IMG/VR virus record: IMGVR_UViG_3300042554_000720
Location: 1-49,691 of that record
DNA from: a virus
Length of the DNA: 49,691 nucleotides
Reading direction: 5' to 3' (one strand)
The translations under genes were made by a program, and so were the position numbers. Positions 10,705 to 32,523 of the stretch are shown here, piece after piece. The notes under the pieces are model-generated. The model did not search any database and had not been told where the DNA came from. It was given only the letters and a program-made list of their open reading frames with translations. How positions within the stretch are numbered: position 1 is the first letter of the stretch; each line of letters opens with the position of its first letter.

Positions 10705-11838
10705 TTAAAACACCTTCTTGTAGAACTCCATGACGCTAACCTTGTCATCCTCGTTCAGCTTCTGAACAAAGGCAACGCTAAAGCCGTCTTGGATGCCATA
10801 GCGCTGCATCTTGCGACCCCAGTTGATGAGGGTACGCGGACTCATGGTGAGGCCCAGCTTGCCGCTGTTGTAGGCATTCCGCACCATCGTAGCGAGCTTC
10901 ACCATGTTGGCAGCAACTTCCTTGGGAGCGCCAGTCTTACCAGTAATGATGGCAATCTCGTGCTTGGCATCAAGATAGGTCAGATGCACAGTGGAAGTGA
11001 AGCGGTCAATGGTGGCCGTGTTCTGGACACCTACGCCAGTGAATGCACCACTCGTATCGCCCTGGCCCACCGTGTTACCGGCGAACACCAGCCGGAAATT
11101 GTCAGCAGGCGTCACAGTCCGTTCCTCGGACGTACCCGGCTTCTCCTTCAGGTAGAGATAGCCGCCATCTTCCAACAGGTTCTGCATACCCATTGCAATC
11201 TCAGCAGGCATCAGTTCCCACTCGTCAACAAGGCACACAGCACCACTCTTGCAAGCCTCGGTGATGGCACCGTCGCGCCAGATGGTAGCGCCACCTTCCA
11301 CCACAAGAGTGCCGAACAGTGCCGAACTCTCCACATCACCACTCATGTTGATGCGGATGAAGGGCCAGTTCAGCTTGGCGCACACATACTTCACCAGCGA
11401 ACTCTTACCGCTACCAGTTGGGCCGGTGATGAGGGACTTATCGCCGTCCATGATGCCAGCAACCAGCACAGCAGCTTCTTCCTTCTGCACCACGTAGTCG
11501 GGGTCAACAGACGGCACCATGCGCTGCACGTCAGGGGACAGGCCAGACAACACCTTCACACCAAAGTCGCCAAACTTCGGAGTGTAGCCAAACACCTTGG
11601 AAAAAGGAACTTCGTCCTTACCAATAACAAACACCTTCTTAACTTCAAGGATCGGCTCTGCGACAGGAGCAGCAGGAATAGAAGCAGCCGAGCCCTTGTT
11701 CAGTTGGGCCTTGAGGTTCTTGATGAGTTCGCTCGAAACGTCGGTGGTCATAGTGGTTCCTGATGAAGAGAATGATTTAGTACGGACAGAGTGTTTGATG
11801 GAGGCACTATAGCCCGTTTCCCAGGGCTTAGTTTTCAT
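10705..11838 (-). CDS. CobS-like / MoxR-type AAA+ ATPase
   Basis: 377 residues if started at ATG 11838, which overlaps the VWA gene's stop by 4 nt. ATG 11751 (348 residues) has a better ribosome site (AGGA, 6 nt) and may be the true start. Walker A is G139PTGSGKSS; Walker B VCLVDE (D205, E206); sensor 1 GNT near 255; a likely arginine finger in IDRF (R279). This is the MoxR/CobS clade. Such ATPases work with a VWA protein, here the next gene upstream, to remodel a metal-bound partner. CobS proper needs CobN and CobT for cobalt insertion; CobN is absent, so the target is unknown. Confidence 0.85.
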   Translation of the reverse strand: MKTKPWETGYSASIKHSVRTKSFSSSGTTMTTDVSSELIKNLKAQLNKGSAASIPAAPVAEPILEVKKVFVIGKDEVPFSKVFGYTPKFGDFGVKVLSGLSPDVQRMVPSVDPDYVVQKEEAAVLVAGIMDGDKSLITGPTGSGKSSLVKYVCAKLNWPFIRINMSGDVESSALFGTLVVEGGATIWRDGAITEACKSGAVCLVDEWELMPAEIAMGMQNLLEDGGYLYLKEKPGTSEERTVTPADNFRLVFAGNTVGQGDTSGAFTGVGVQNTATIDRFTSTVHLTYLDAKHEIAIITGKTGAPKEVAANMVKLATMVRNAYNSGKLGLTMSPRTLINWGRKMQRYGIQDGFSVAFVQKLNEDDKVSVMEFYKKVF

Positions 11839-17070: not shown

Positions 17071-18846
17071 ATGTCAAAGCTCACATTAAATTCCATTGGA
17101 AGTCGTTATGGCAGCGTAGATGCGCTGAATGACAACTTTGACGCCATTGAACAGGCGTTCAACAACACCCTAAGCCGTGATGGTGATGGGCCAAATTTCA
17201 TGGAAGCAGATTTTGACATGAATGGCAAGGCCATCCTTAATGCTGCTTCTCTGGAGGTTTCCACCCTCACACTGGGTGGTGTAGAAGTAATCCCCTCTTC
17301 AGTGGTAACCATTCCAGCTTCAGTGGTGACGTTTGAATTCACAGCCACTGCTGGTCAAACCTCCTTTTCTATTTCCCCCTACACTCCCATTGCGTCAGCA
17401 GTTACGGTGGAAGTAAATGGCATTGTGCTGCGCACCAGTTCCATCAGTGTTACAGGTACAACCCTTAGTTTTCCAGCCTTAGCTCTAAGCGACCAAGTAC
17501 AAGTGCGTGTACACACCAGGGCGTTTACTTCCATTCCAACAGCAGGGGATATTTTTTACACTGCATCTGGTGCTGGCGGTGTTGCCCGCAGTGTGCAATC
17601 TAAGCTGGCAGACGTTTACAACGCAAAAGACTACGGCTACAAAACAGACGGCACTGACATGGGGCCGGTGATGAATGCGTTGATTCAAATTGTCGGCGAT
17701 GCTGGTGGGGGCATCATTGATGTACCAGCAGGAGCAGCCCTCATTGCCACAACGGTGGACAACAACCGAGCCCGCGTGCTAATCCGCGGCGCCGGCACGA
17801 ACACGTTCCACGACGAGCCTCCCGATACTGGAGGCACTTTGTGGTATACACTAGCACCAATCGTTCTAGCCAAACACCGCACACCTTATGGCGGCCCATT
17901 GGCACAAAAAAACACTGGCGGCGGTTTTGTCGGCATCACTATGTCAGGCAACAACGTAGGCACTTGTGCATTGGAATGTGACACTGTTTCGGAGTTCACC
18001 CACGAGCTAACTATGTTAGACTTCGCAGGGATTCCTATGGTGTTTAAGTGTGGCGTGACGGGAGTAGACTTAGGTGAGGCTTGTGATGTACAACACGGCG
18101 TACAACGCCTGTACATCCGCCAGAGGTTTGGCGCCGCAGCAAACATTGACGCTGTTTACCACGGTGGCAGCACTAATGCCAACGTGAGTTTGTGTGACTT
18201 ACGCTATGTTATTCAACACTTTAATGGCAATGGGGTTGACTTTGCCAGTAGTGACAATAATGACATTTGGCTGTTAACCTACGCCGGGGGTGGCACTGGT
18301 AAGGCTGCAATCCATCGCGGCACGTCCAACATTGTTCTACCATATTCGCGTGGCAACCGCTTCCACCTCGTGAGTGGCGACAGCCCAATGGTTTTTGAAG
18401 GGACTGACACACCTGGGGTGACCGTTCCGAGCAACGGCCACATTCACATGCTGGACTTTGAAAACAGCACTCCGTTTCCGACTCTTGGCACAGGATGTGT
18501 GGTCCCGGTGATGGGCGCTAACGGGGTGCTTTACGGCACCGCGCATACAAAGGTGCCGATTGCTGACACAGCCGGCAACGCCATTAATGCACGCAATCGT
18601 TTAGGCACGGAAGCAGTCCGTGTTTACAGCACTTCCTCTAATCACGCTGTTCTTGACGATGGAGTGAACGTATGGGGTGTATCCATTGATTCAGGAACGG
18701 GTGACCTCCGTATGGTGAGGGCAGCAGGTTCAGGCGCAGTGAATGTAGGCAATGGTGCCCCTGTAAAAATCGGAAATAAACTCGTTACCGAAGGCAACGC
18801 AGACAGCGGAGGCACTGGGTTTAGAGTGCTGCGAGTTTCAAACTGA
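17071..18846 (+). CDS. Tail spike/fibre with virion-anchoring N-terminus and beta-helix
   Basis: 591 residues. The N-terminal 70 (LNDNFDAIEQAFNNTLSRDG then MEADFDMNGKAILN) is the podophage tail-fibre anchoring type. Residues about 80-165 form a beta-rich linker. The start of a right-handed beta-helix follows (YNAKDYGYKTDGTD, then GGGIIDVPAG), as in pectate-lyase-fold spikes that cut host polysaccharide. No catalytic residues can be assigned. It is the first late gene, an unusual place for an adhesin in T7-like genomes. Confidence 0.85.
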   Translation: MSKLTLNSIGSRYGSVDALNDNFDAIEQAFNNTLSRDGDGPNFMEADFDMNGKAILNAASLEVSTLTLGGVEVIPSSVVTIPASVVTFEFTATAGQTSFSISPYTPIASAVTVEVNGIVLRTSSISVTGTTLSFPALALSDQVQVRVHTRAFTSIPTAGDIFYTASGAGGVARSVQSKLADVYNAKDYGYKTDGTDMGPVMNALIQIVGDAGGGIIDVPAGAALIATTVDNNRARVLIRGAGTNTFHDEPPDTGGTLWYTLAPIVLAKHRTPYGGPLAQKNTGGGFVGITMSGNNVGTCALECDTVSEFTHELTMLDFAGIPMVFKCGVTGVDLGEACDVQHGVQRLYIRQRFGAAANIDAVYHGGSTNANVSLCDLRYVIQHFNGNGVDFASSDNNDIWLLTYAGGGTGKAAIHRGTSNIVLPYSRGNRFHLVSGDSPMVFEGTDTPGVTVPSNGHIHMLDFENSTPFPTLGTGCVVPVMGANGVLYGTAHTKVPIADTAGNAINARNRLGTEAVRVYSTSSNHAVLDDGVNVWGVSIDSGTGDLRMVRAAGSGAVNVGNGAPVKIGNKLVTEGNADSGGTGFRVLRVSN

Positions 18847-18853
18847 GAGCAAT

Positions 18854-20059
18854 ATGAGCACAGCACTAAATAATGTGCGCAAACTTGCGCAACTCAACTT
18901 TGTCCCAGGCATTGTCACTGGCTCTAACTCAGCGGCTGCTGCTAACGCGGCCACCATTCAAGCGGCGATTGATTCGCTCGCCTCTGCTGGTTCAAACTCC
19001 TCTATTACACTGCCCGGTGGTGTCATCTACTCTAATAAAATTATTCGGCGCGGAAGTGTCGGTATTTTGGGAGTAGGTGAGACGGCCACTACGCTGATTA
19101 CGGCCAACGGCCTCAACGATAACTTGGTGGTTGATGACCGCTGGGAAAATAACACTGCGTTTAGCCAAGACCCGTTTCTTATGGCTGACCTGACGCTAGA
19201 CGGCAACCGGGCGAACAACACAAGTGGGTCTTGCTACGTCGGACAAACCTACTGGAGTACCTTCTCCCGCGTGCGTTTTCAGAACGCGGCTAGTCGCGGT
19301 GTTCAAATTAGCGCCCAAACCAAAAACGGTACAAACATTGGAAACAGTGTTGCTGACAACCGTTGGGAGAACTGCCGCTTTTTTAACAACGCGCAAGGCG
19401 GGTGGTTTGGTAAGGCAAGCACTACAGGAGCAATCCTTGCGGATCAAATCCTGACCGGCTGCATCTTCGACAGCAACGGTGGAGCCTCCCATGCACAACT
19501 CATCAGCGAGCGATTTGCTGGTTCAGTTTTGAATGAGTGCCGCTTTTACTCAGGGTATGCTGGAGGTGATGCGGACCTCACTGGATTTGCTATTTCGCAA
19601 GTCGTCGGTTGTCACTTTGAACTTGCTGCGCGATCCAGTCCAAACACCTCCTCCATCATTGCAAGTCTGCGTATTCGCACGCACGGTGGGCCAGTATATG
19701 CCATTTCAGCCATTGTTGGCAACTTGTTCTGGATGACCTCCACGAACAAGAGCGCGACGGACGTTTACTGCGGCATCTACTTCGACCAAGCATCGACGGC
19801 CCTTGCTCTGGCAGGCAACACCTTTCAGGCTGACGCAGCCATCACTACAAAGCGTGCGGTACATGGTGCAACTGCAATGGGCGGCACAACCGCAGGAAAC
19901 ACGTTCACCGGCTACACCATCGGCACTGAATACGGCACCGCGTGGAACTCGTGGACCCGTGCCACGGTGGGCGCAGCCGCAACTGACGCAGCCACCACGC
20001 AGACGCTGGCAAATAACCTGCGTACAGCTCTCATTAACGCCGGTATTGTGGGGGCGTAA
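18854..20059 (+). CDS. Second beta-helix tail spike protein
   Basis: 401 residues without the fibre-anchoring N-terminus of its neighbour. After a short helix it shows TIQAAIDSLASAG and SSITLPGG, typical of the cap of a pectate-lyase-like beta-helix, followed by Asn-rich coils (LDGNRANNTSG; WENCRFFNNAQGG). The C-terminal region is Ala/Thr-rich (AAATDAATTQTLANNLRTAL) and may trimerise. Probably a depolymerase or receptor-binding spike docked on the previous protein, with which it is in tandem (7-nt gap). Confidence 0.75.
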   Translation: MSTALNNVRKLAQLNFVPGIVTGSNSAAAANAATIQAAIDSLASAGSNSSITLPGGVIYSNKIIRRGSVGILGVGETATTLITANGLNDNLVVDDRWENNTAFSQDPFLMADLTLDGNRANNTSGSCYVGQTYWSTFSRVRFQNAASRGVQISAQTKNGTNIGNSVADNRWENCRFFNNAQGGWFGKASTTGAILADQILTGCIFDSNGGASHAQLISERFAGSVLNECRFYSGYAGGDADLTGFAISQVVGCHFELAARSSPNTSSIIASLRIRTHGGPVYAISAIVGNLFWMTSTNKSATDVYCGIYFDQASTALALAGNTFQADAAITTKRAVHGATAMGGTTAGNTFTGYTIGTEYGTAWNSWTRATVGAAATDAATTQTLANNLRTALINAGIVGA

Positions 20060-20262
20060 TGGACGAAATTTTGTTTGGTAAAATGCAGGCACGCATTGAA
20101 CAGCTTGACAAAGATGTGACAGAGCTAAAAGGAGACATGAAAACTCTCCTTGAACTTGCAAACAAAAGTAAAGGGGGTATTTGGGCAGGCATGACGTTAG
20201 TTGGTGTCTTCTCAAGTGCAATTACATGGATAGTCAGCCATCTACCGTTCTTCAAGCCGTAA
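20059..20262 (+). CDS. XhlA-like / holin-like small membrane protein
   Basis: 67 residues: a charged coiled-coil half (MQARIEQLDKDVTELKGDMKTLL, interrupted by acidic repeats) and one C-terminal transmembrane helix (about 42-61). This layout matches the haemolysin XhlA family and type III-like lysis accessory proteins. It starts on the TAATG of the spike gene. As a 3-TM holin is encoded at 44922-45323, this may be a second lysis protein or an antiholin. Confidence 0.65.
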   Translation: MDEILFGKMQARIEQLDKDVTELKGDMKTLLELANKSKGGIWAGMTLVGVFSSAITWIVSHLPFFKP

Positions 20263-20705
20263 AATGGCCTAAGCCGCATAAAGAGAGTGACACGGGGATT
20301 TTTAGTAGTAGAGTGTACGTATACACCAACCGAGAGAAGCATAAAGCAGCACTTACATATTTAGGTGAAGTTTGTGCTTCAAGTCCAGCCGTAGGTGTTG
20401 CGCAGGCTTTTCAAAATAAAGTAGACGGTAGCCACATTGTAGTAATCGGATGGTTTGACGGTGAAGTTTCTACCCTCATTCACGAAGTTTCACACACGAC
20501 GTTTTATGTTTTAGACAGTGCTGGTGTGCTCCTTACACCAGACAATCACGAAACATTTTGCTACCTACACGAATATTTGTTTAACAAAATATGGACCGAT
20601 CCCGCTACCAAGACAAAAACGGTAAAAACATCACAGTTGGACTCTTTAAAGAGTGGGCCCGAGTCGATGTTAAGTTCAAACCTGTCTACTCCCTCCCTAT
20701 CGTAA
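20226..20705 (+). CDS. Small zincin-like protein with HExxH motif
   Basis: 159 residues from ATG 20226 (a longer frame starts at 20181 inside the membrane protein gene). The core LIHEVSH with a downstream NHETFCYLHEYL gives HExxH plus a Glu, as in small phage metallopeptidase-like proteins. The last 35 residues (from about 20591) overlap the next gene in another frame and are Ser/Thr/Lys-rich, so they may not be functionally constrained. Role unknown; its position between lysis and terminase genes suggests lysis or virion maturation. Confidence 0.65.
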   Translation: MDSQPSTVLQAVKWPKPHKESDTGIFSSRVYVYTNREKHKAALTYLGEVCASSPAVGVAQAFQNKVDGSHIVVIGWFDGEVSTLIHEVSHTTFYVLDSAGVLLTPDNHETFCYLHEYLFNKIWTDPATKTKTVKTSQLDSLKSGPESMLSSNLSTPSLS

Positions 20706-21070
20706 AAGAAATGTTTTTGGCAGCTAAAGACCCAAGTGAGTATAAAGCTGCAATGTCTATTGTGGGGGATTGGGAACACTGGCAAGAAATTCGTAATCAT
20801 CCGTACATTAAACCCTATGTAGAGAAGTGGCAAGAGGAGTTGGCAGTGTTGCTTCGTTCAGAAGCTATTTCCGCAATGCAGTCACACGCGCGGGCCCCAG
20901 GTGGCACAGCCGCAGCAAAGTGGCTGGCAGACAAGGGTTATTTGGGTGAACTGCCAGAAAAGAAACGGGTCGGTAGACCATCTAAACAAGAAGTTGAAGA
21001 AGACAATTCACACGTTGAGAGTAAGTTAGCTCCAGTATTGTCCCTTATTAGTAAGGCAGCAAATGAGTAG
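20591..21070 (+). CDS. Terminase small subunit (putative)
   Basis: 159 residues, helical. The segment KWLADKGYLGE followed by KKRVGRPSKQEVEED is typical of podophage DNA-maturase/small-terminase C-termini. The N-terminal half would be the DNA-recognition part. It is separated from the large subunit (25232) by seven genes, which is unusual. The start overlaps the zincin-like gene by 115 nt and has no clear ribosome site. Confidence 0.7.
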   Translation: MDRSRYQDKNGKNITVGLFKEWARVDVKFKPVYSLPIVKEMFLAAKDPSEYKAAMSIVGDWEHWQEIRNHPYIKPYVEKWQEELAVLLRSEAISAMQSHARAPGGTAAAKWLADKGYLGELPEKKRVGRPSKQEVEEDNSHVESKLAPVLSLISKAANE

Positions 21071-21389
21071 AGGTACAACGTGGGTTAATGCTGACGGGTT
21101 AGTAGTAGGTGGCGGCCGACGCACAGCAGTAAACGTAACACAACTCGATGAACGCGCCATTGATGGCGAACTGCGGCTAACACCACAACAGCAAGTCTAC
21201 TTAAAATCTCCCGGCAATCTTTCTGGTGTAACGTATGACGCTAGTAACCGCGCAGTTGCGTGGACTATTGACGGAATCAGCTACACTGCAAACTACTCAA
21301 GTGGCCTCATCACAGTAGCAGGGACAGATGGCACTGTAGTGTTTGTTGCCGTAGATCCTGCTAATAGAATTACTGGAATTACGTCATGA
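21063..21389 (+). CDS. Small virion-type protein sharing a motif with the post-capsid gene
   Basis: 108 residues, beta-rich. Its opening SRGTTWVNADGLVVGGGRR resembles TRASVWTNPDGLKVGFGRN at the start of the gene at 30451, so the two probably share an N-terminal motif. The rest has short strands (VAWTIDGISYTANYSSGLITV). Probably a virion component; function unknown. Overlaps the terminase gene by 8 nt. Confidence 0.6.
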   Translation: MSRGTTWVNADGLVVGGGRRTAVNVTQLDERAIDGELRLTPQQQVYLKSPGNLSGVTYDASNRAVAWTIDGISYTANYSSGLITVAGTDGTVVFVAVDPANRITGITS

Positions 21390-21727
21390 AACAATATAGC
21401 ACTGCTGAGTTACGTCTTCAAACTATAGAATATTGGGCGTCGTTTACACACGCCCGTAACGACGTTGATGTGGCGCGTGTCCACGCTTTTCAGGCTTTAG
21501 TTCGTGAGAATGAAGACCTCTCTGTCTGTACTGATGAGGAAGTTTCAAAGGCTTATGGCGGTAGGGGCTGGGCGCCTATTCCAGTGTGTGTTGAGTGCGG
21601 GGCACGAGAGGATACAAACGTATTGTTTGGCGAGAAGGAAGTTCCTATTTGCCTAGAGTGCCTAACCAAAGCTGTTTCATTCAACAAACCCAAAAAGAAC
21701 TTTCTAACTCGTTTGCTAGGAAACTAA
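21386..21727 (+). CDS. Four-cysteine zinc-ribbon-like protein
   Basis: 113 residues. Helical N-terminal half; C-terminal half has CVEC and CLEC pairs about 20 residues apart, a zinc-ribbon arrangement. Basic C-terminus (KPKKNFLTRLLGN). ATGA overlap with the preceding gene. No specific family recognised; could contact DNA or other proteins during late infection. Confidence 0.65.
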   Translation: MKQYSTAELRLQTIEYWASFTHARNDVDVARVHAFQALVRENEDLSVCTDEEVSKAYGGRGWAPIPVCVECGAREDTNVLFGEKEVPICLECLTKAVSFNKPKKNFLTRLLGN

Positions 21728-21728
21728 C

Positions 21729-22124
21729 ATGGCTACAAATTTTTCTACTTCTCTCCGCACTTCCATTGTAGGCGCACTAGTCACTGCCGCAGGCGCAGGA
21801 GCAAAACTAAAGTTCTATAGTGGAACACGTCCTTCCGGTGTAGCCGCTGTTGGTGGTGGCACTACTCTGTTGGGCACTGTAACACTGAGTACAACCATTG
21901 GTACTACCAGTAGCGGTGCAATTGACTGGGACGAAGCTGGCGCTACACAAAGCAATGGCTCACACGTTAGCGGCACTCCCACATTCGTAGACCTCACTAC
22001 GTCAGGTGACACTGTGTTGTTTCGCACTGACCTTACAGGCGGTAGTTGGACCTTTACAGGCTCAATTGCTACGGGTCAAAACATCACTCTATCCTCACTT
22101 GTAACAACTGCTGGTAACGCATAA
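21729..22124 (+). CDS. Probable minor virion protein
   Basis: 131 residues, rich in Thr, Ser and Gly and beta-strand (TVTLSTTIGTTSSGAIDWDEAG), the composition of small tail or head decoration proteins. Similar in style to the product at 43390. Function inferred from composition and location only. Confidence 0.6.
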   Translation: MATNFSTSLRTSIVGALVTAAGAGAKLKFYSGTRPSGVAAVGGGTTLLGTVTLSTTIGTTSSGAIDWDEAGATQSNGSHVSGTPTFVDLTTSGDTVLFRTDLTGGSWTFTGSIATGQNITLSSLVTTAGNA

Positions 22125-23495
22125 GTGGCAACTGCAAGGAACAAAACCTACGGAGCACTGTCCGGGGACATTGTTTATGGGGGACGTTGGCGCCCCGGGC
22201 CGTTCGGCACGATGGTGCTTGACCCCTTCGTGTTGGGCGGCGCGTTCGCAAGCGTAGCGCCGCCGCCTCCTCCGCCGGGTCCGCTCGCCGAGTTCACCGT
22301 CACGACCGACGGCATCTGGACGTGGTTCACCATGCCTGAGGCCGTGCAGGTTGGGGACTACATATATCTCGGCACCGTGAGCAGCGACGGCCGCTGCCGC
22401 GCGCATCGCATCAACCTCAACGACCAGACCACGCAGACATTCGACCTGTCGGGCGTGCTGGAGATTGACGACCACAACAACGGCTCGGTATTGGCGCGGC
22501 CTGACGGCTCGGTGGTGTTTTTTTACGGCTCGCACAACGACACAGAATTCAAGTACCGAATCTGGAACGGCTCCGGGTCGTTCACCTCGTCGGGATCGTG
22601 GACAACGCAGGCGGCGCGCGGCCTTGGTGGCGGCCCGTACAGCTACCCCAAGCCGTTCATCTTCCCCGGCGACACGGTAAGCGGTCGCGTGTGGCTGTTC
22701 CACCGCCGCTGGACGGACGGCGGCGGCACGACGCGGACGATGGCGTACCGCACGACCAACACGCTCACCGGCACAAGTGACCCGTTCAGCGCTTACACCG
22801 ATGTCCTGCTAGAAACCGGCCAGCGGCCCTATGTGGTCATGTGGCAGGACGGGAACAAGCTGCACTGTGCAGCGTCCAACGCTCAGCCAAATGAATCGAC
22901 GTTCCTGACCATCCGGCACTTCTACGCCGAGATGACCGCGGGCGCGCTGGTGTGGAAGACCAGCGACGGCACGACCATCAGCGGCCTGCCGTTCGCCATC
23001 AGCGCCACGACGCGAGTAGATGACGGCGGCGACGTGAAGCGCTGGGTGTCTGACATTCAGACGGGCAGCGACGGGCACCCGCGCATTCTTTGGATGAAGT
23101 ACCCCGGCAATGACGGCAGCCTGATCGAATACTGGCACAGCCGCTGGACCGGCTCCGCGTGGGTGGCGCACAAGATCACCGACGACGGCGCAGGTCTGTA
23201 TCTCGGGGAGCCGTTTTATCACGGCGGCCTGCGGTTCAAGCGCACCGACGTAACGCGCATCTTCCTGTCAGCACCCATCAGCGGCGTGCGCCAAGTGCAA
23301 GAGTGGAGCACCAGCGACAACGGCGCCACATGGGCGTCGGTTCGGGCGCTAACCACTGGCGGCACCGCTGGGAGCCCCCTGAAGGCCCGCCCCATCGGCG
23401 TGAACAACAGTGACGGCCGGGTAAGTGTGCTTTGGTGGCAGGGCACCTACACGACGTTCGAGAACTACAGCACCTCGGTGCAGGCGGCGGGGTAA
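22125..23495 (+). CDS. BNR-repeat (sialidase-like beta-propeller) adhesin, GC-rich
   Basis: 456 residues from GTG 22125, directly after the preceding TAA. The first 18-20 residues (MATARNKTYGALSGD) have the GC content of the genome; from about 22180 the DNA becomes strikingly GC-rich. A Pro-rich hinge (PPPPPPG) precedes a propeller domain with DDHNNGSV, VFFYGSHND and several W-containing blades, as in the BNR_4 family of glycan-binding or glycosidase proteins. Probably receptor binding. It is part of a transferred cassette that also includes most of the next gene. Confidence 0.75.
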   Translation: MATARNKTYGALSGDIVYGGRWRPGPFGTMVLDPFVLGGAFASVAPPPPPPGPLAEFTVTTDGIWTWFTMPEAVQVGDYIYLGTVSSDGRCRAHRINLNDQTTQTFDLSGVLEIDDHNNGSVLARPDGSVVFFYGSHNDTEFKYRIWNGSGSFTSSGSWTTQAARGLGGGPYSYPKPFIFPGDTVSGRVWLFHRRWTDGGGTTRTMAYRTTNTLTGTSDPFSAYTDVLLETGQRPYVVMWQDGNKLHCAASNAQPNESTFLTIRHFYAEMTAGALVWKTSDGTTISGLPFAISATTRVDDGGDVKRWVSDIQTGSDGHPRILWMKYPGNDGSLIEYWHSRWTGSAWVAHKITDDGAGLYLGEPFYHGGLRFKRTDVTRIFLSAPISGVRQVQEWSTSDNGATWASVRALTTGGTAGSPLKARPIGVNNSDGRVSVLWWQGTYTTFENYSTSVQAAG

Positions 23496-23497
23496 GC

Positions 23498-24475
23498 ATG
23501 GCACTCTTCGGCACAGGCGCGGTCACGTTCACTGGGACGCAGTTCACTGAGTTGGCTGCGTTTGACGCCAGTTTCAGCAAGCAAACCGGCTATACGCAAG
23601 ACGGCATTCTTGGTGCTGGCGGCACTTATGCCATTCAGAACGGCGGCGTCGGTCCTGCCTGCTATCAGTACGCAGCCACGCCGCCCAGCGCGAATTACTC
23701 GGTGTGGGCCGACATTGCCAAACTGAGCGGCAGCACCGGCAGCGGCCCGCGCATGGGCGTGGCTGGTCGAATGGCGTCTGGTGCTGAGACGTTCTACTTT
23801 GCGCTTTACAGCCACGATGCGACAAACGTGCGTCTATTCAAGGTTGTCGCCGGCACTCAGACGCAACTCGGCAGCAGCTACACCTACACGGCAACAAGCA
23901 CGGCGGCCAAGCTCGAATTGGTCATGGACGGGTCGAGCATCAGCGTCAAGCTCAACGACACGACCGTCATCGGCCCGGTAACCGACACCGCCATCACAGC
24001 AGCGGGCAGGGCGGGTGTGTACCTGTTCGACATGCGCGAAACGGGCGTGGCCGACTCGGGCTCGCTCGACAACTTCGACGCGGCAGCGATTGGCGGCGGC
24101 CCCACCGGCTCCTTCACCCTCGACGACTTCCCCTTTACGGGGGGCTTTGCCAGCGCTCCTGCGTCCAGCTTGCTTGGTACGCTTACGCTTGACAACTTCG
24201 TCCTATCTGGCACGCTGGGCCTACTGCCGGGTCGCGTTGACACGCCGCCGTTCAAGAACTGGACCGGCACGCTGCTACCTGGAACCACTGTTCCTAATGT
24301 TGTGTTTTTACGACTAGACCGCACCACAGCGTTGTCACTTACAAACCAAACAACAGCAGGGGATGCTGTACTCACTGTTGAAAACGCATCTTTAGTTAGT
24401 GGTGTTGCGTACATTATGGTGACTTACAACGCAGATGGCACTATTGCCGGAGCCCAAAGGGTAGTTGCAGCATGA
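23498..24475 (+). CDS. Concanavalin-like (LamG-type) adhesin with native C-terminus
   Basis: 325 residues from ATG 23498; an upstream frame to 23432 only shadows the previous gene. Residues about 40-200 form a jelly-roll-like glycan-binding fold (FYFALYSHDATNVRLF, KLELVMDGSSISVKLND). Two TLDDF/TLDNF repeats follow. The last 65 residues, after about 24290, return to the genome's lower GC. So the gene looks like a fusion of imported and resident sequence. Function: tail or surface adhesin. Confidence 0.7.
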   Translation: MALFGTGAVTFTGTQFTELAAFDASFSKQTGYTQDGILGAGGTYAIQNGGVGPACYQYAATPPSANYSVWADIAKLSGSTGSGPRMGVAGRMASGAETFYFALYSHDATNVRLFKVVAGTQTQLGSSYTYTATSTAAKLELVMDGSSISVKLNDTTVIGPVTDTAITAAGRAGVYLFDMRETGVADSGSLDNFDAAAIGGGPTGSFTLDDFPFTGGFASAPASSLLGTLTLDNFVLSGTLGLLPGRVDTPPFKNWTGTLLPGTTVPNVVFLRLDRTTALSLTNQTTAGDAVLTVENASLVSGVAYIMVTYNADGTIAGAQRVVAA

Positions 24476-24945
24476 CTGTAATGAGTTATTCTTATGGTGG
24501 AACAAAAACACCTGGGGGATATCACTATGGGTTTGGTGGACTTGGTGTTCGTGGTGATGAAATTCCAGATTTTGGAGTAGCAGGAGCAGCACTTCAATAT
24601 GAGGATATTACATTGCCTGGGGAGGCTGCTGATGAGTTTCGTGTTGTTCTTTTAACAACTCCCACTCTAGGCTCACTGTTTGTTTACGAAGACAGTAGTT
24701 TTGAATATAGCGGTCCCGATGGTGTACACACGTTTACGTATGCAGGGTATAAAAACGGCATTCTTTACGGCACTGCCACAATTACAATTACAATTGGGTT
24801 GGGTTTAGGCGGAAACTTAGTGTTGGATAGTTTTCTTGTTGAAGGTACGTTTGAAGGCGTTAACATTATTCCAGATGTTTTAGGTAGACGCATTGCGCCG
24901 CGCGTAGCTTTGCGTGCTAATGGTGAATTACTAGTATTGTTTTAA
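24472..24945 (+). CDS. Probable virion-associated protein
   Basis: 157 residues (or 154 from ATG 24481). Gly/Tyr-rich start (YSYGGTKTPGGYHYGFGG), then a cadherin-like strand pattern (LLTTPTLGSLFVYEDSSFEY) and a hydrophobic C-terminus. Low GC, like the genome and unlike the cassette just before it. Probably a tail-associated protein; not recognised. Confidence 0.6.
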   Translation: MTVMSYSYGGTKTPGGYHYGFGGLGVRGDEIPDFGVAGAALQYEDITLPGEAADEFRVVLLTTPTLGSLFVYEDSSFEYSGPDGVHTFTYAGYKNGILYGTATITITIGLGLGGNLVLDSFLVEGTFEGVNIIPDVLGRRIAPRVALRANGELLVLF

Positions 24946-24953
24946 GGAATAAC

Positions 24954-25232
24954 ATGCCCTATATGACGAATGGAAAACGCGACTACAAGAAAGAACGTGC
25001 TAAATACCATAGCCGTCCTGAACAAATGGAAAACAATGCAGAGCGCAAGCGTGCTCGTAGAAAGTTGGAAGCTGAAGGTAAAGTAAAGCCACACGACGGC
25101 AAGGATGTAGACCACAAAAAGCCACTAAAGCGTGGTGGTTCAAATGGTAGGTCAAATCTTCGTGTTCAAAGTAGATCAACTAACCGCAGTGTAAGTAAAA
25201 CTAGCGGTAACCGTATGAAGGGTAGTGGTTAA
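24954..25232 (+). CDS. HNH endonuclease next to large terminase
   Basis: 92 residues, very basic. Core VDHKKPLKRGGSNGRSNLRVQS and NRSVSKT form a compact HNH site; the second residue pair of the motif is DH. HNH proteins next to the large terminase often help packaging in cos or pac phages, so that role is likely. Stop/start overlap TAATG with terL. Confidence 0.8.
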   Translation: MPYMTNGKRDYKKERAKYHSRPEQMENNAERKRARRKLEAEGKVKPHDGKDVDHKKPLKRGGSNGRSNLRVQSRSTNRSVSKTSGNRMKGSG

Positions 25233-26773
25233 TGGCAAAACTCAGTGCAGCAGATAGGCAAGCACTACGAGAGGCGTGTGAAGCAGACCTAGAGACATTC
25301 ATCAAGGTTGTTGCACCCCATCGTGTGCTTGGTGCTGTGCATAGCGAGTTGTGTCGTTGGTGGCAACGTCCAGATGCTAAGGACAACCAACTTGTTCTTC
25401 TTCCTCGTGACCACCAAAAAAGTGCAATGATTGCCTACCGAGTTGCACACCACATTACTAAAAATCCAGATGCTACGGTGTTGTACGTAAGTGCCACTGC
25501 CCTTCTGGCTGAAAAGCAGCTTAAGGCAGTAAAAGATATTTTCACAAGTGACATTTATATGTACTTGTGGCCTGACATGGTGAATGTTAACGAAAACAAA
25601 CGCGAAAAGTGGACCAACGACGAAATTTCCATTGACCACCCAAAACGCCGTGCCGAAGGTATTCGGGACGCCACCATTAAAGCAGCGGGCATTACAGCTA
25701 ACGTAACTGGCCTACACTGCACTGTTGCGGTACTAGACGACGTAGTAGTGCCTGACAACGCCTATTCTGAAATTGGCCGTGAGAGTGTGCGGGCTTTCTA
25801 CTCACAACTATCATCCATTGAAAGTACAGGCGCTAAAGAGTGGTGTGTAGGAACTCGCTACCATCCTGCGGACCTCTACCGCGACATGATGGAAATGGTG
25901 GAAATCTACTACGACAAAGAAACGGATGACGACGTAGAACACGCTGTGTACGAGGTATTTGAAAAGGTAGTTGAAACTACTGGTGAGTTTCTGTGGCCTA
26001 AGCAGCGCCGCAGCGATGGTAAAACATTTGGCTTTGACGAAAAAGAACTTGCCCGCAAGAAGGCTAAGTACCTAGACGTTACACAGTTTTACGCACAATA
26101 TTACAACAACCCCAATGCTGTAGAAACAGCTCTTATTGATAAGAGTAAGTTTAACTACTATGACCGCAGTAAGGTGGAAAACATCAGCGGTGCGTGGTAT
26201 GTGGGCGATAGACTCCTATCTGTGTATGCAGCAATGGACTTTGCTTACTCCGTTACTAATACTAGTGACTATACGGTTATTGGTGTAGTTGGAGTAGACG
26301 AAGATAGTAACTACTACATTCTAGACATTGATAGGTTCAAGACTAACAAGATTTCTGTAATGTACGATAGAGCAGAAGCTGTATTTCGTAAGTGGCGGTT
26401 TAAGAAAATGCGGTGTGAAGCTGTAGCAGCACAGCGTCTCATCGTACAGCAGTTTAAAGACTACATGCGAGGGCAGTCCATTGTGTTCACAGTGGATGAG
26501 TATTTTCCACCAAAGACAATGAATAAGGCAGAACGCATTGCCTCCATTTTGGAACCGCGCTATCAAAACAACCAAATCTACCACTACCAAGGCGGTAACT
26601 GTCAAGTGCTGGAAGAGGAGTTGCTAATGAACAACCCTGAACACGATGACGTTAAAGATTGCATTGCTGCCGCAGTAGAAATTGCAAAGCCAACAATTGG
26701 AAATACTCGTTGGGGTCGAAAGGACAATGTTGTGAGTTTTAACAGTAAGTTTGGTGGAGTAGCCTACCGATGA
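25232..26773 (+). CDS. terL: Terminase large subunit
   Basis: 513 residues. Deviant Walker A P58RDHQKS64; Walker B TVAVLDD (D169-D170); nuclease domain with MDFAYS and the later YYILDIDRF, the RNase H-like metal site. It powers DNA translocation and cuts the concatemer. Followed by portal with a 4-nt overlap, the classical order. Confidence 0.93.
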   Translation: MAKLSAADRQALREACEADLETFIKVVAPHRVLGAVHSELCRWWQRPDAKDNQLVLLPRDHQKSAMIAYRVAHHITKNPDATVLYVSATALLAEKQLKAVKDIFTSDIYMYLWPDMVNVNENKREKWTNDEISIDHPKRRAEGIRDATIKAAGITANVTGLHCTVAVLDDVVVPDNAYSEIGRESVRAFYSQLSSIESTGAKEWCVGTRYHPADLYRDMMEMVEIYYDKETDDDVEHAVYEVFEKVVETTGEFLWPKQRRSDGKTFGFDEKELARKKAKYLDVTQFYAQYYNNPNAVETALIDKSKFNYYDRSKVENISGAWYVGDRLLSVYAAMDFAYSVTNTSDYTVIGVVGVDEDSNYYILDIDRFKTNKISVMYDRAEAVFRKWRFKKMRCEAVAAQRLIVQQFKDYMRGQSIVFTVDEYFPPKTMNKAERIASILEPRYQNNQIYHYQGGNCQVLEEELLMNNPEHDDVKDCIAAAVEIAKPTIGNTRWGRKDNVVSFNSKFGGVAYR

Positions 26774-28512
26774 ACAACAACATTCAATCGGCTGTAAGTG
26801 AAGATGCGCTTGTCTACACTATTGTGGACAAGTGGATTAAGTGGAATCAAGCTAAAGTTGAGTGGCGCAACTCAATGCAAGAAATGCGCCAATATTTGTT
26901 TGCTACGTCCACCAAAACCACTACTAATAGTAAGCTGCCCTGGAAGAACTCTACGGTGACGCCCAAGCTAACACAGATTCGAGACAACCTGCATGCTAAC
27001 TACATGGCAGCGTTGTTTCCGTCTGATGATTGGTTTTTTTGGCAGAGTGAAGACAAAACTGAAGAGTTGGCTAAAAAGCGGCGCGCAATTACTTCGTACA
27101 TGAAACAGAAGATGAAGGCGTCTAACTTTCAGCTTCTAGTTAGTCAACTTATTTACGACTATATTGATTTTGGCAATGTGTTTGCTACCTACGACTACGT
27201 GCGTGATGTAGTGGGCTCTAACGTGCGCTATGTAGGCCCTAAAGCCTATCGGCTCAACCCCAACGACGTAGTGTTTAACCCAGTGGCTGATAGCTTCGAG
27301 AGTACGCCACTAGTCCGCCGCATGCTTCAAAGTTTGGGCGATCTAATGACAGACTTGGAAACCAAGCCTGCACTTGGGTATGACAAAGCAGTAGTGGCGA
27401 AAGCCCTGGAGTTTCGTGGTCAATATAGGGAAGACCCTGAGTTTAAGAAGGAAGTGAATTTAGCCATTGATGGTTTTGGCAGCTTTGACGAGTATGTTGA
27501 AAGCGACATGGTGGAGCTTCTGGAATATTGGGGCGACATTTACGACTCTGAATCTAAGAAGGTGCTGCGTAACCAACTCATCACCGTCATTGACCGCAAA
27601 TTCATTCTTCGTCGTAAAGAGAATGACAATTGGATTGGTGGTAAGCCCATTTTTCATTGTGGCTGGCGTCTTCGTAATGATAATTTGTGGGCACAAGGGC
27701 CCCTAGAGCAATTGGTTGGCATGCAATATCGCATTGACCACCTAGAAAACCTTAAGGCTGACGTGTTTGACCTCATTGCCTATCCTGTTATTAAGGTAAT
27801 GGGTAACACGGTGGAGGAGTTTGAGTACGAGCCTGGAGCTACTGCCTTTTGCGGTGATGAGGGAGACATTGAGTTTCTGCGTCCTGATGCCACTGCACTG
27901 AACGCCGACATGCAAATTGCGGAGCTAATGAACCGCATGGAGGAATTGGCTGGAGCACCCAAGCAAGCTATGGGTATTCGTACTCCTGGCGAAAAGACTA
28001 AATACGAAGTACAAACGCTGGAAAATGCAGCGGGCCGCATCTTCCAATCTAAAGTAAGTTGGCTAGAAAGAAACATCCTTGAGCCTGTTCTTAATGGCAT
28101 GCTTGCTGAATCTGTTCGTAACTTCCAAGCGGTGGAGAGGATTCGCTATGAAGATGATGAGACAGGTGCAGAAATGTATGTTGAAATTACGAAGGAAGAT
28201 TTAATGGCGGTAGGCAAGCTCTACCCCGTTGGCGCTCGCCATTTTGCTGAACAAGCTAAGTTTGTACAGGAATTGAGTCAAACCATTGCAGCCGTACAAG
28301 CTGTGCCCACAGTGGCAGCGCACATTAGCGGTAAAGCTATTGCTAAAGCACTGGAAGAGAATTTGGGTTGGGCTCGCTACCGCATCGTGCAAGATAATGC
28401 AATGGTGTTTGAGCAACAAGAGACGCAGCGCCTAATGAACACTGCTGCGGAAGATTTACAAACTGAAATGAATATTGATGAACAAGCTCCTACTGAACAA
28501 CCGGCCGTCTGA
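26770..28512 (+). CDS. Portal (head-tail connector) protein
   Basis: 580 residues. Typical podophage portal features: an N-terminal region with WRNSMQEMRQYLF and KLPWKNSTVTPKLTQ, a central PGATAFCGDEGDIEFL, and an acidic, Gln-rich C-terminus. The dodecamer would form the DNA channel. Its last 35 nt overlap the next small ORF. Confidence 0.9.
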   Translation: MNNNIQSAVSEDALVYTIVDKWIKWNQAKVEWRNSMQEMRQYLFATSTKTTTNSKLPWKNSTVTPKLTQIRDNLHANYMAALFPSDDWFFWQSEDKTEELAKKRRAITSYMKQKMKASNFQLLVSQLIYDYIDFGNVFATYDYVRDVVGSNVRYVGPKAYRLNPNDVVFNPVADSFESTPLVRRMLQSLGDLMTDLETKPALGYDKAVVAKALEFRGQYREDPEFKKEVNLAIDGFGSFDEYVESDMVELLEYWGDIYDSESKKVLRNQLITVIDRKFILRRKENDNWIGGKPIFHCGWRLRNDNLWAQGPLEQLVGMQYRIDHLENLKADVFDLIAYPVIKVMGNTVEEFEYEPGATAFCGDEGDIEFLRPDATALNADMQIAELMNRMEELAGAPKQAMGIRTPGEKTKYEVQTLENAAGRIFQSKVSWLERNILEPVLNGMLAESVRNFQAVERIRYEDDETGAEMYVEITKEDLMAVGKLYPVGARHFAEQAKFVQELSQTIAAVQAVPTVAAHISGKAIAKALEENLGWARYRIVQDNAMVFEQQETQRLMNTAAEDLQTEMNIDEQAPTEQPAV

Positions 28513-28729
28513 CAGTACGCCGGAAGAGTTTAAGAAGGCGTGGGACAACAGTGGATATGTGTTTGAAGCGCTGTACAAAACACTGGAGTCGTTCATTGCC
28601 CAAAACGAAGATGTGAAAAAGGATGATTTTGATTGTCCTAATCATTATGCAAAGCTGGCCTATCAAGCGGGCCTAAACCAAGCGTGGAAACAGGTATTAG
28701 ACATGCTGCCTGAATCTGCTAAACCCTAG
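28478..28729 (+). CDS. Small hypothetical protein between portal and scaffold
   Basis: 83 residues from ATG 28478, overlapping the portal's end by 35 nt; no clear ribosome site. Helical, with TPEEFKKAWDNSGYVFEAL and CPNHYAKLAYQAGLNQAW. Common position for a small conserved protein in podophages; role unknown. Confidence 0.65.
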   Translation: MNKLLLNNRPSDSTPEEFKKAWDNSGYVFEALYKTLESFIAQNEDVKKDDFDCPNHYAKLAYQAGLNQAWKQVLDMLPESAKP

Positions 28730-28740
28730 TAAGGAAAGTC

Positions 28741-29478
28741 ATGACAGTTGACACTATTTTTGGTAGTGGTAGTTCCGACAAGAACACTGCTACTAGCCCG
28801 GCCAAGACAGAGGATCAGGGTCTGCTAACCGCCCTAGTTGGCGAGAAGCAAAAGTACAAGAGCGTTGAAGAGTTGGCGAAAGCCTACGTGAATGCGGACA
28901 CCTTCATTGAACAGCTAAAAGAGGAAAACCGAAAGCTGCGCGAGAAGGAAGCTGCATCACGTACCATTGACGACGTTCTGGAGCGAATGAACAAAAAGGA
29001 AGAAAAGCCGGCAGACACCCCGGCCAACACCAGCCAACTAACTAAGGATGATGTTGCTGCCCTTGTAGAACAAACGCTCTCTGGTAGAGAAACTGCACGA
29101 ACCCGTGAACAAAACCTCCTTCAAGCAGACAAGCTAATGAAGGAAAAGTTTGGTGAGAAAGCTGCTGAAGTATTTAAAAGCAAAGCTGCCTCTCCTGAAC
29201 TGGTGAAGGTTTACATGGAACTTGCCAGCGTATCTCCACAAGAGTTTGTAGCTGTGTTTGCGCCATCTGGCGAACAACCAAACGGCGGCACTGTCGCCAC
29301 AGGTTCTGTCAACACCACCACAGTGGTTCCTACTAGTAATCGGGATAACCTTCCGGGTACGAAGGAGTGGGCCAATAAGCTGCGTCGAGACAAGCCTGAT
29401 GAATATTGGTCGCTGGAGTTTCAAACCAAACTGCAACGTATGGCTATTGAAAATCCTACTCTCTATTTTGGAGGCTAA
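28741..29478 (+). CDS. Scaffolding protein
   Basis: 245 residues, highly charged and helical, Ala/Lys/Glu-rich, without cysteines. Contains a coiled-coil segment (EQLKEENRKLREKEAASR) and a conserved-looking end with WSLEFQTKLQR. It precedes the major capsid gene, so it should direct procapsid assembly. Confidence 0.85.
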   Translation: MTVDTIFGSGSSDKNTATSPAKTEDQGLLTALVGEKQKYKSVEELAKAYVNADTFIEQLKEENRKLREKEAASRTIDDVLERMNKKEEKPADTPANTSQLTKDDVAALVEQTLSGRETARTREQNLLQADKLMKEKFGEKAAEVFKSKAASPELVKVYMELASVSPQEFVAVFAPSGEQPNGGTVATGSVNTTTVVPTSNRDNLPGTKEWANKLRRDKPDEYWSLEFQTKLQRMAIENPTLYFGG

Positions 29479-29481
29479 ATA

Positions 29482-30438
29482 ATGTCTGGTTTTAACTACG
29501 CAAAGGTTAACGAACATCTGGTTCGTACCGAACTGTGGAGCGCCCAACTCAAGGACGTTCTGCTTGACCAACTCATGGGCACTAAGTATCTGCGGATGCT
29601 TAACGGTTTCCCTGACGGCAACCAATTCACTATTCCGTCCATCGGCGAACTGCCTATGCGCGAAACGAGTGAAAACGATCCGGTTGTCTACGATACGATG
29701 GACACTGGTGAGTTCACTTTCCAGATTGACCGTTATGTTGAAGCTGCTACGTTCATCACTGATCGTGCCAAGCAAGATAGTTTCTACGCGAATCAACTCA
29801 TCGCAATGTTCCCGCAAAAGATGCGTCGGGCCCTGGAAGAGAACATGGAATCAAGTGTTCTCACTCTGGTGAACCAACAAACTCTGAGCAACCTCAACTC
29901 CATTAACGGTGCGCCCCACCGCTTCGTGGCTTCGGGCAACAGCAACACCACGCTGAACCTCGACAACTTTGCTCAAGCCAAGTATGCGCTTGACAAGGCT
30001 AATGCCACGGGTGCTCGAATTGCAATCATCGATCCTAGCCAAGAGTTTGAACTGAACAAGTTGGTTGGCGCGCAAGCGTTCGTCAACAACCCTCAGTTTG
30101 GCGGCATGGTGAATGGTGGCTTTGTCAACTCAACGACTGGTATGCGCTTTAGCCGTTCCATCTTTGGCTTTGACATCTATTGCAGCAACTATCTGCCTAC
30201 CACGACTGAATCGGCCATTAACTCAATTAACGTCCCGGCTTCGCCTGTGGTAAACATCTTTATGTCTGTCGGTGGTGATGAGACGCCTTTCGTTGGCGCC
30301 TATCGTCAAATGCCTCGCGTAGAGTATGAGCGTAACAAAGACTTGCGTCGTGACGAGTATGTCATGAACGCTCGCTTCGGCCTCAAGCTCTATCGTCCTG
30401 AGTGCATCGTTGGCATCATCAGCCGCAGCACCATCTAA
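29482..30438 (+). CDS. Major capsid protein
   Basis: 318 residues. The start has a strong site (GGAGG). Sequence features (FTFQIDRYVEAATFITDRAKQ; EFELNKLVGAQAFVNNPQFGG) resemble HK97-fold capsid proteins of podophages. Codon use looks well optimised, consistent with high expression. Followed by another virion gene and then a terminator. Confidence 0.92.
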   Translation: MSGFNYAKVNEHLVRTELWSAQLKDVLLDQLMGTKYLRMLNGFPDGNQFTIPSIGELPMRETSENDPVVYDTMDTGEFTFQIDRYVEAATFITDRAKQDSFYANQLIAMFPQKMRRALEENMESSVLTLVNQQTLSNLNSINGAPHRFVASGNSNTTLNLDNFAQAKYALDKANATGARIAIIDPSQEFELNKLVGAQAFVNNPQFGGMVNGGFVNSTTGMRFSRSIFGFDIYCSNYLPTTTESAINSINVPASPVVNIFMSVGGDETPFVGAYRQMPRVEYERNKDLRRDEYVMNARFGLKLYRPECIVGIISRSTI

Positions 30439-30450
30439 TAGGAGAATAGA

Positions 30451-30960
30451 ATGACTCGTGCAAGTGTTTGGACCAATCCTGATGGTCTTAAGGTGGGTTT
30501 TGGTCGGAATGATGCCGACTTTGACTCTGTTGGTGTGGTGGATCAACCCGGCCATGAACGTGAGCTAGTCCTCGTTCTAGACGGTGAAAAGTTCACTGCG
30601 GGCGTCTATCAATTCCAAGAGACGCACCTTCTTCCTGTTGGTGCAGTTCCTCTCTATGCTCACGCAGAAGTGAGTGAGGTGTTTGTTCTTGGCGGTACAA
30701 CTCCGACCATTCAAATTGGCTCTACTACGTCTAGTGCCGGTGTTCCTGCTGCTCCTGCCATTGCGTCTGCTGCTGCTGCCATTTTTGGTTCGCTGGCAGA
30801 AGCTAGTGCTGAAGCACTGGGTACTTACACCCTCAGCGTTACGGCTACTCCGCTAACGGCCACCACGGCTGGTAACCTCCAAGTAACCCTTGGTGGCACC
30901 TCGCCCACGGTGACTGCTGCTGGTCGTGTTAAGCTGGTTATTGGTTATCGCGCTGTTTAA
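30451..30960 (+). CDS. Putative head decoration protein
   Basis: 169 residues, Ala/Thr-rich in its second half. GGAGAA before the ATG. N-terminal TRASVWTNPDGLKVGFGRN is shared in pattern with the 108-residue protein at 21063. It lies between capsid and a terminator, so it should be abundant: capsid cement or decoration protein is the best guess. Confidence 0.6.
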   Translation: MTRASVWTNPDGLKVGFGRNDADFDSVGVVDQPGHERELVLVLDGEKFTAGVYQFQETHLLPVGAVPLYAHAEVSEVFVLGGTTPTIQIGSTTSSAGVPAAPAIASAAAAIFGSLAEASAEALGTYTLSVTATPLTATTAGNLQVTLGGTSPTVTAAGRVKLVIGYRAV

Positions 30961-30968
30961 GTGAGTTT

Positions 30969-30996
30969 GGGGCAGGCAGCAATGTCTGCCCCTTTT
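30969..30996 (+). terminator. Intrinsic terminator after the capsid genes
   Basis: Stem GGGGCAG/CTGCCCC (7 bp) with a 10-nt loop, followed by TTTT. It lies in the 49-nt gap after the decoration gene and probably attenuates transcription into the tail genes, boosting capsid mRNA, as in T7. Confidence 0.65.
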
Positions 30997-31009
30997 ACCC
31001 CTACTACCT

Positions 31010-31390
31010 ATGGCAACTATCAATCATAAAGATATTCCTGACGGAGAGCGCCACGAGCCTAAAGGCGTTTCCACAGCTACTGCGGGTCAAGTATATGTTG
31101 CCAGCGGTAGTGGAAGTGGTACTTGGCTTTCCCTTATTAGTAAGATTACGGCTAGTCTCACCCCCACTGCTGTAACGGCCAACGACAGTGTAGCGCAAGT
31201 TTACACTGTAACTGGCATCACTACTTCACAAACTCTACTAAACGTCATTCCTCCCAGTAACACTGGAGACACTGTTATTGGCAGTGCTCGCATCACTGGT
31301 GCTAATGAAGTTACAGTTACGTGGGCAAACGTCCACAACTCTAGTGCAACACCTCCTGCGGGAACCTACACTTTCGTAGTGGCAGCATGA
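31010..31390 (+). CDS. Small virion structural protein
   Basis: 126 residues, beta-rich, starting ATINHKDIPDGERHEPKG and continuing with Ser/Thr/Val strands. Similar short proteins follow the capsid genes of several podophages. Probably virion-associated, possibly head decoration. ATGA overlap with the next gene. Confidence 0.65.
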   Translation: MATINHKDIPDGERHEPKGVSTATAGQVYVASGSGSGTWLSLISKITASLTPTAVTANDSVAQVYTVTGITTSQTLLNVIPPSNTGDTVIGSARITGANEVTVTWANVHNSSATPPAGTYTFVVAA

Positions 31391-32088
31391 AACTTTCCCT
31401 TCTAGACATGACGCAAAACATCCTGTCCGCAATGGACAGCGATGAGGTGAGTTCCATTGATGAAACAGTGGAGTCCATTCAAGTAGCAGAACTCATTAAG
31501 GAGAGTTACTTTGACCTAATGGCCCAGCGTGACTGGCCGTTTCTACGTCAACTCTATACCCTTGAGGGTTTGGCAGATGTAGCTAACCCAACCAAGATGA
31601 AACTTCCAGACACTGCCAATAAAGTGTTCTGGATTAAGTACAACAAGAATCCAGTGGACTACATGGAGCCTGAAGCGTTCCTATCACTCATCGACCAACG
31701 TGTTCCAGCAGACAATGTAGTAGATGCGAATGGCTATGTCCTCAATCGTGATCCTCTCTATTGGACCACATATGACGACAAATACGTGGTGTTTGACGGC
31801 AGAAACTCCGCTATAGACACTACGCTGATGTCTAGCAAGACCAAGGTATATGGTACTGTAGCCCCCTCTTGGCAACACGTAGACACATTCATTCCCAACC
31901 TACCGGATAAGTTTTTTCCAACTCTACTGGCTGAAGCTAAAGCCCAATCCTTTGTCAACCTAAAGCAACAAGCTAATGCGCGAGAAGAGCGCAAGGCACA
32001 AAAAGGTAAGGTGACAATGAGGAATGAGAGTTGGAGGAATGAAGAGGGTGAGATTAAGTACAATCGCAAAGTAAACTACGGACGGTAA
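31387..32088 (+). CDS. Tail adaptor (tail tubular protein A-like, T7 gp11-like)
   Basis: 233 residues. N-terminal helices (ESYFDLMAQRDWPFLRQLY) and a C-terminal basic helix are typical of podophage head-tail adaptors. It should form a dodecamer ring under the portal that carries the nozzle encoded downstream. Confidence 0.8.
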   Translation: MKLSLLDMTQNILSAMDSDEVSSIDETVESIQVAELIKESYFDLMAQRDWPFLRQLYTLEGLADVANPTKMKLPDTANKVFWIKYNKNPVDYMEPEAFLSLIDQRVPADNVVDANGYVLNRDPLYWTTYDDKYVVFDGRNSAIDTTLMSSKTKVYGTVAPSWQHVDTFIPNLPDKFFPTLLAEAKAQSFVNLKQQANAREERKAQKGKVTMRNESWRNEEGEIKYNRKVNYGR

Positions 32089-32089
32089 T

Positions 32090-32284
32090 ATGGCTGACAT
32101 TTTTCGATCTACTAATAAGAAGCGTGAAGAGAAGGCTGGTCTTACTGACGTGCGCGCAGAAAAGAAAACTCCAAACGCTGTAGGCATGTCACAACAAAAG
32201 TTTGGTAATGCTGGTAAAGAAGACCCCCGTAAGAAAAATCTTGAGCAACGCGACAAGCTGTTGAAAAAGAAAGGATACAAGTGA
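32090..32284 (+). CDS. Small Lys-rich hypothetical protein
   Basis: 64 residues, very basic (KKREEKAG, KKTPN, KKNLEQRDKLLKKKGYK), no fold recognised. It starts 1 nt after the adaptor stop, and its TGA overlaps the GTG start of the next gene. Possibly a nucleic-acid-binding virion or assembly protein. Confidence 0.65.
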   Translation: MADIFRSTNKKREEKAGLTDVRAEKKTPNAVGMSQQKFGNAGKEDPRKKNLEQRDKLLKKKGYK

Positions 32285-32523
32285 AAACTTTGGAAGACAT
32301 CATGGAACGTAAGGCAGAGCGACAAGCTGCTGCCCGTGAGCGTAAGGAAGAGCGTAAGGAGAGTAACGACGTAAACACTCTCTCCATTGAGAAGGAGCCT
32401 ACGGGCCTCTACTTCTGTCGCTACACTAGGGGCCCTGTGCCTGACGAACTAAAAGGCATGTTCACCCACAAGCAGAAAATCCTAGACATTTGCACTCGTC
32501 GTAACATTCCAGTGGCACTCTAA
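32281..32523 (+). CDS. Small hypothetical protein
   Basis: 80 residues from a GTG start in a GTGA overlap. First half is a charged helix (MERKAERQAAARERKEERK), second half a mixed fold ending FTHKQKILDICTRRNIPV. Sits between adaptor and nozzle genes. Not recognised. Confidence 0.65.
   Translation: MKTLEDIMERKAERQAAARERKEERKESNDVNTLSIEKEPTGLYFCRYTRGPVPDELKGMFTHKQKILDICTRRNIPVAL

Follow-up and report, generated by a model that had tools for sequence, protein, structure and literature searches.

The locus described here raises one question: why does a stretch of DNA that is much richer in G+C than its surroundings begin inside one gene and stop inside the next? The window, by which we mean the whole stretch of DNA analysed, is a complete IMG/VR virus record of 49,691 bp, in which no tRNA gene was found. 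A first-pass annotation had described the DNA from about 22180 to 24290 as far richer in G+C than both flanks, starting some 20 codons into a gene with a GTG start at 22125 (gene A) and ending about 65 codons short of the end of the gene at 23498 (gene B). These limits are accurate. Maximum-likelihood segmentation of 20400-26000 places change points at 22179 and 24282 (log-likelihood gain ~87), that is, after 18 codons of gene A and 64 codons short of the end of gene B, and G+C is 0.643 in the segment between them, against 0.470 to the left and 0.455 to the right.

The check proposed along with that description, of sliding-window G+C and codon use, gives the same picture. Over the full record, the most G+C-rich 2,110-bp interval begins at 22181 (0.642), and non-overlapping intervals of this length reach a maximum of 0.539 (mean 0.485, sd 0.024). 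GC3 is 0.84 in the interior of gene A, 0.75 in the interior of gene B and 0.75 again in B codons 199-262, and it is low nearby (0.36 in g21729, 0.33 over the final 64 codons of gene B, 0.26 in g24472), so that the segment stands at 0.75-0.84 against 0.26-0.36 in its neighbours. Within the head of gene A, GC3 rises from 0.50 (codons 1-18) to 0.80 (codons 19-33). The change in G+C sits at third codon positions, and amino-acid make-up is therefore not its cause. The segment is foreign. To this extent the original idea of low-G+C ends around a foreign middle is correct: the G+C-rich stretch took the place of the middle of an older locus. The coordinates of the parts are collected in Table 1.

Table 1. 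Features of the locus and of its surroundings, in positions of the window
Feature	Position	Strand	Remark
Left backbone marker g20591	20591..21070	+	PHROG 8035
Module genes g21063, g21386 and g21729, low G+C	21063..22124	+	Order the same in G+C-rich phages
Identity island with L085	22107..22278	.	Mismatch-free between 22106 and 22279
Gene A, 456 aa, starting with GTG: conserved head and BNR_4 beta-propeller	22125..23495	+	PF15892
Head of gene A, codons 1-18, resident low-G+C part	22125..22178	+	93-96% nt identical to L003
Left cassette end, G+C-rich yet conserved (codons 19-33 of A)	22179..22223	+	L003 homology stops at 22223
Exchangeable interior of gene A	22224..23495	+	Propeller here; SGNH/GDSL-type domain in L003/L096
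Second identity island with L085, within the propeller gene	22855..23121	.	
Gene B, 325 aa	23498..24475	+	
Exchangeable interior of gene B, with a suggested lectin-type sandwich	23498..24091	+	Closest to G+C-rich L084, not to the twin L085
Right end, G+C-rich and conserved (B codons 199-262)	24092..24283	+	
Resident low-G+C tail of gene B (final 63 codons and stop)	24284..24475	+	GC3 step p=2.9e-6
Gene C (g24472), final gene of the module, low G+C	24472..24945	+	
Right backbone marker g24954	24954..25232	+	

Genes A and B belong to a 3.9 kb module that also comprises g21063, g21386, g21729 and gene C and lies between two backbone genes. The product of g21729 matches PHROG 3758 ('virion structural protein', E=1.8e-9) and is 86-99% identical in six relatives. 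Beyond the module, the terminase lies at 25232 and the head-tail adaptor at 26770, followed by tail and internal virion genes. All relatives, which are labelled here with L numbers, are metagenome contigs. From a scan with the terminase, the best 80 of at least 600 matched loci were kept, some of them short contigs, and any of g21729, A, B and C is present in only two of these 80, L002 and L003. Both backbone markers can be found in 65 of the best 80 loci; in 64 of the 65 the module is absent between g20591 and g24954, which are 14-414 bp apart, and L003 alone has 3,891 bp between them. The contigs L085 and L096 were added through scans with module proteins. The two kinds of scan thus yield four low-G+C module contigs besides the window (L002, L003, L085 and L096), a small set in which two members have the same sequence. 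Protein searches of 50,697 phage records with g21729, gene A and the tail of gene B found no relative. Bacterial and archaeal genomes, scanned with the g21729 and gene A alignments, also gave none, and a host or prophage donor therefore could not be named.

Several other regions of the window can be described briefly. On the minus strand, 10705-13574 is a moderately G+C-rich stretch (0.48-0.58) with an ATPase and CobT-like pair, matching PHROG 249 (filed under porphyrin biosynthesis, E=6.5e-62) and PHROG 17276 (cobaltochelatase CobT subunit, E=9.5e-50), and 46457-48358, also on the minus strand, is a ribonucleotide reductase (PHROG 367, E=1.5e-183). A second variable tail locus, of tailspike type, occupies 17071-20059; its G+C of 0.52-0.54 is higher than that of the genes that follow, its 591-aa gene matches L096 in residues 1-156 only (61%), and its next gene has no match there. 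The ORF at 20181-20705 contains an HEVSH stretch that looks by eye like a metallopeptidase site, and its place in L003 (3292-3714) is taken by an ORF that looks, again by eye, like an acetyltransferase.

The first-pass annotation had credited the G+C-rich DNA with bringing in a beta-propeller and a LamG-like domain. The propeller is present: gene A matches Pfam BNR_4 over residues 81-352 (22365-23180; E=1e-17), with 64.8 bits against a Pfam cut-off of 27.3. For the LamG-like domain there is no Pfam match, since no family, Laminin_G included, is found on the window's gene B product; at the gene B position, Laminin_G_3 appears only in two far homologous gene pairs, those of L113 and L116. Fold searches with the structure models of the two proteins, which are poor and serve as hints only, return a putative neuraminidase and a glycoside hydrolase as nearest to gene A (mean pLDDT 43.6) and lectin-type sandwiches, CBM66 and galectins, for gene B (best E 4.4e-4, to CBM66; mean pLDDT 43.9). 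The latter result suggests that gene B may encode a lectin-type sandwich. Sequence searches among solved structures gave chance matches only. Gene A homologues were also found in L114-L118 and L121, and at 4144-6761 of L114 two tandem propeller genes, each a homologue of gene A (46% and 44%), are followed by a gene B homologue. A candidate docking motif common to A, B and C, L-D-x-x-x-[LFP]-x-G, had been spotted by eye and was dropped: the regular expression matches many of the proteins, but it was derived from these same proteins, and a gene B motif profile from six relatives, run against the 213 ORFs of the window, finds gene B only and neither A nor C.

A G+C-rich middle flanked by a low-G+C head and tail could be produced if a single insertion had opened one ancestral tail gene and left its two ends as separate head and tail genes, and this is how the locus had initially been interpreted. 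The relatives speak against it. Apart from the window, eight contigs contain both ends (L085, L003, L096, L084, L102, L103, L111 and L113; L002, L104 and L109 show just one end and are outside this count). In all eight, A and B are separate ORFs with differing interiors, and the homologue sought as a link, an ORF joining the head of gene A to the tail of gene B, occurs in none of them, an outcome that the first-pass annotation had itself named as contrary to its reading. The two-gene layout is also retained in G+C-rich phages of uniform composition, and the far phage L113 keeps the order g21729-A-B-C. Head and tail are therefore the ends of two old neighbours, A and B, and a history of one gene split by one insertion is highly improbable.

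Close relatives of the window have conserved ends and non-homologous or highly diverged interiors, as expected of an exchangeable cassette. L003 is 88% identical to the window up to 22223 and 90% identical from 24091; between these points it has a GDSL-type gene A (Lipase_GDSL_2, E=5e-5, under the Pfam cut-off) and a different gene B interior. L096, which comes with a different metagenome id, is 100% identical to L003 across 13,259 bp, cassette included. L002 is 98% identical to the window from 24092 and has a third gene B interior. The interiors of L003 and L002 have a G+C content of 0.62-0.69, and GC3 drops within the conserved tail of gene B in the window (p=2.9e-6), in L003 (p=1.7e-5) and in L002 (p=1.8e-4); no such step is found in the gene B tail of the G+C-rich L084, L102, L103 and L111. 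A single ancestral import behind all the low-G+C phages was also considered. The left G+C-rich end is common to the window and L003. At the right end (B codons 204-262), four-fold sites show no resemblance between the window and L003 (12/39 identical; shuffled 0.25) and some resemblance between the window and L084 (18/33; shuffled 0.31), with p=0.056 only for the one comparison against the other. These values hint that the right G+C-rich ends of the window and L003 may be independent imports with the same end point.

The contig that we call the twin, L085 (in full L093; contig 3300046007_001990), shares 8,327 bp of exactly identical sequence with the window (24034-32360), up to the contig end. 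To the left of this region the two differ: the gene B interiors are 59% nt and 56% aa identical, and the twin's gene A is a mosaic, with two mismatch-free islands and elsewhere mostly 64-86% identity per 50 bp. The 50-bp bins beside the island at 22107-22278 are 70-96% identical on the left and ~64-85% on the right. Every sequence used here being a metagenome contig, the exact 8.3 kb common to twin and window might be taken as the mark of an assembly chimera of two phages in one sample, and the twin may differ on its left side partly because the assembly switched between strains. Pure artefact is argued against, however, because the islands have diverged sequence on both sides and because of the L003/L096 pair, with its two different metagenome ids. 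In addition, the combination of a G+C-rich interior and a low-G+C flank recurs in four other contigs, with three contents in all, and we give a chimera very little credence. The twin's identity islands, together with the different contents of the relatives, instead indicate replacement and repeated exchange, not one insertion.

The module is found in the same order in the uniformly G+C-rich phages L084, L103 and L111; L102, L104 and L109 have it in part or on shorter contigs. The portal of L103 matches Head-tail_con (E=3e-176), a family to which the window's portal has no match. Gene A is of the propeller type in L084 and of the GDSL type in L102, L103 and L104, and thus both gene A types occur in both phage groups. 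As to a donor's propeller gene, for which the first-pass annotation had suggested a search, a uniformly G+C-rich phage, L084, does have a propeller gene A, but its interior is just 69% nt identical to that of the window, below the 83% of L085. The gene B interior is nearer to L084 (85% aa and 81% nt identity; in g24472 the values are 77% and 61%), and the interiors of A and B have therefore also been exchanged separately. With 81% nt identity in one interior and 69% in the other, L084 is not the exact donor, which was not found among these contigs.

At four-fold sites, the window and L084 agree at 66/99 positions in the gene B interior (shuffled 0.33) against 10/65 in g24472 (0.14; Fisher p=5e-11), and at 77/135 in the gene A interior (0.37 by shuffling). 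Common G+C richness inflates such four-fold identities, and the shuffle is only a rough correction. The gene B interior tree joins the window to L084 (96/96), with AU p=0.020 for the topology joining the window to L085, a test done after the identities had been seen. The flank tree joins the window to L085 (99/99), with AU p=2.3e-5 for the topology joining it to L084. The interior thus has a history unlike that of the flank, a second mark of an exchangeable cassette. Taken together, the twin's differing gene B interior and the match to L084 without synonymous resemblance in g24472 therefore point to a cassette that is exchanged across phage groups. The outer module proteins are 57-96% identical to those of L084, which would agree with the whole module having come once from a G+C-rich phage, its outer parts then drifting to low G+C while the middle lagged, with no later exchange. 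Such a history is hard to reconcile with the sharp GC3 step within one conserved protein, the different contents of close relatives, the conflict between the trees, and a four-fold identity to L084 that is at chance level in g24472 and jumps to 0.67 within the interior of gene B; we regard it as barely credible.

Our preferred reading is that 22179-24282 is very probably an imported tail appendage cassette of receptor-binding type, repeatedly replaced from G+C-rich phages that carry the module. The low-G+C lineage has the module between the two backbone genes. It would keep the brief opening of gene A and the final third of gene B, whereas everything between these two parts would be swapped repeatedly by recombination with module-bearing G+C-rich phages, a propeller being traded for an esterase-type or other domain. 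The crossovers would fall at the conserved ends, presumably during co-infection.

From the domain names (BNR_4, the lectin-like folds and the PHROG 3758 neighbour), we infer that the products of A and B may be virion-borne, with surface glycans as their ligands, and may determine host range; a host-range change through the cassette is plausible. The cassette could also be real and exchanged and yet have a role other than host choice, for example in capsid decoration or matrix penetration; the presence of a second tailspike-like variable locus and the filing of the g21729 family under head and packaging would fit this, but interiors of glycan-active or glycan-binding types, and variation between close relatives as strong as in receptor-binding parts, make it unlikely. 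The exchange of host-recognition-type parts seen here, between phage groups with genomes ~15-20 points apart in G+C, points to shared hosts or co-infection. We suggest more tentatively, and with some doubt, that the module might be a general adhesin socket moving among phage groups, into which the low-G+C lineage receives repeated splices at about the same two points (the start of A and the end of B), the A and B interiors also being swapped separately. The G+C contrast shows the limits of receptor-binding-type exchange to within a few codons, and relatives are available from either side of it.

In T-even phages, adhesin content is reportedly exchanged between conserved stretches, with neighbouring genes affected. 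The present locus is similar in that adhesin content swaps between conserved stretches and the swap reaches neighbouring genes. It differs in that the conserved ends are spread over two adjacent genes, one at the start of the first and the other at the end of the second, and in that neither A nor B has a Pfam or PHROG match to the T4 fibre families. Literature searches on related terms and on this precedent, which were not built to exclude an earlier description, returned no title that names this module.

More generally, it is well documented that phages, whether near-identical or unrelated, trade host-recognition parts (PMC10579305, PMC3909814, PMC7468147, PMC10684548 and PMC7693777). In PMC10579305, a syntenic receptor-binding module is reported in the Alteromonas phages A5, V22 and P24, which belong to different families and have otherwise unrelated genomes. 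The likeness to our case is a receptor-binding-type module common to different phage groups; that module consists of a fibre and a chaperone in cultured phages, whereas here a propeller or esterase is paired with a lectin-like gene in uncultured ones, and the G+C contrast lies within genes. The SGNH-hydrolase tailspikes of Pectobacterium Studiervirinae combine a conserved N-part with a horizontally acquired domain such as SGNH (PMC7693777). The joining of a conserved N-part to an acquired domain is similar, but our locus differs: an SGNH-type domain is found only in the L003-type cassette, the window having a propeller instead, and the change extends to a second gene. Metaviromic islands of marine phages (PMC3909814), where near-identical backbones differ in their host-recognition genes at one place, and cryoconite phages with flexible modules and a GDSL lipase among the variable genes (PMC7468147) share with our contigs the near-identical backbones with differing host-recognition-type genes at one place. 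The difference is that here composition and tree conflict indicate a likely source group. The exchange of tail adhesin and host-recognition modules is thus already known, and this module is a further member.
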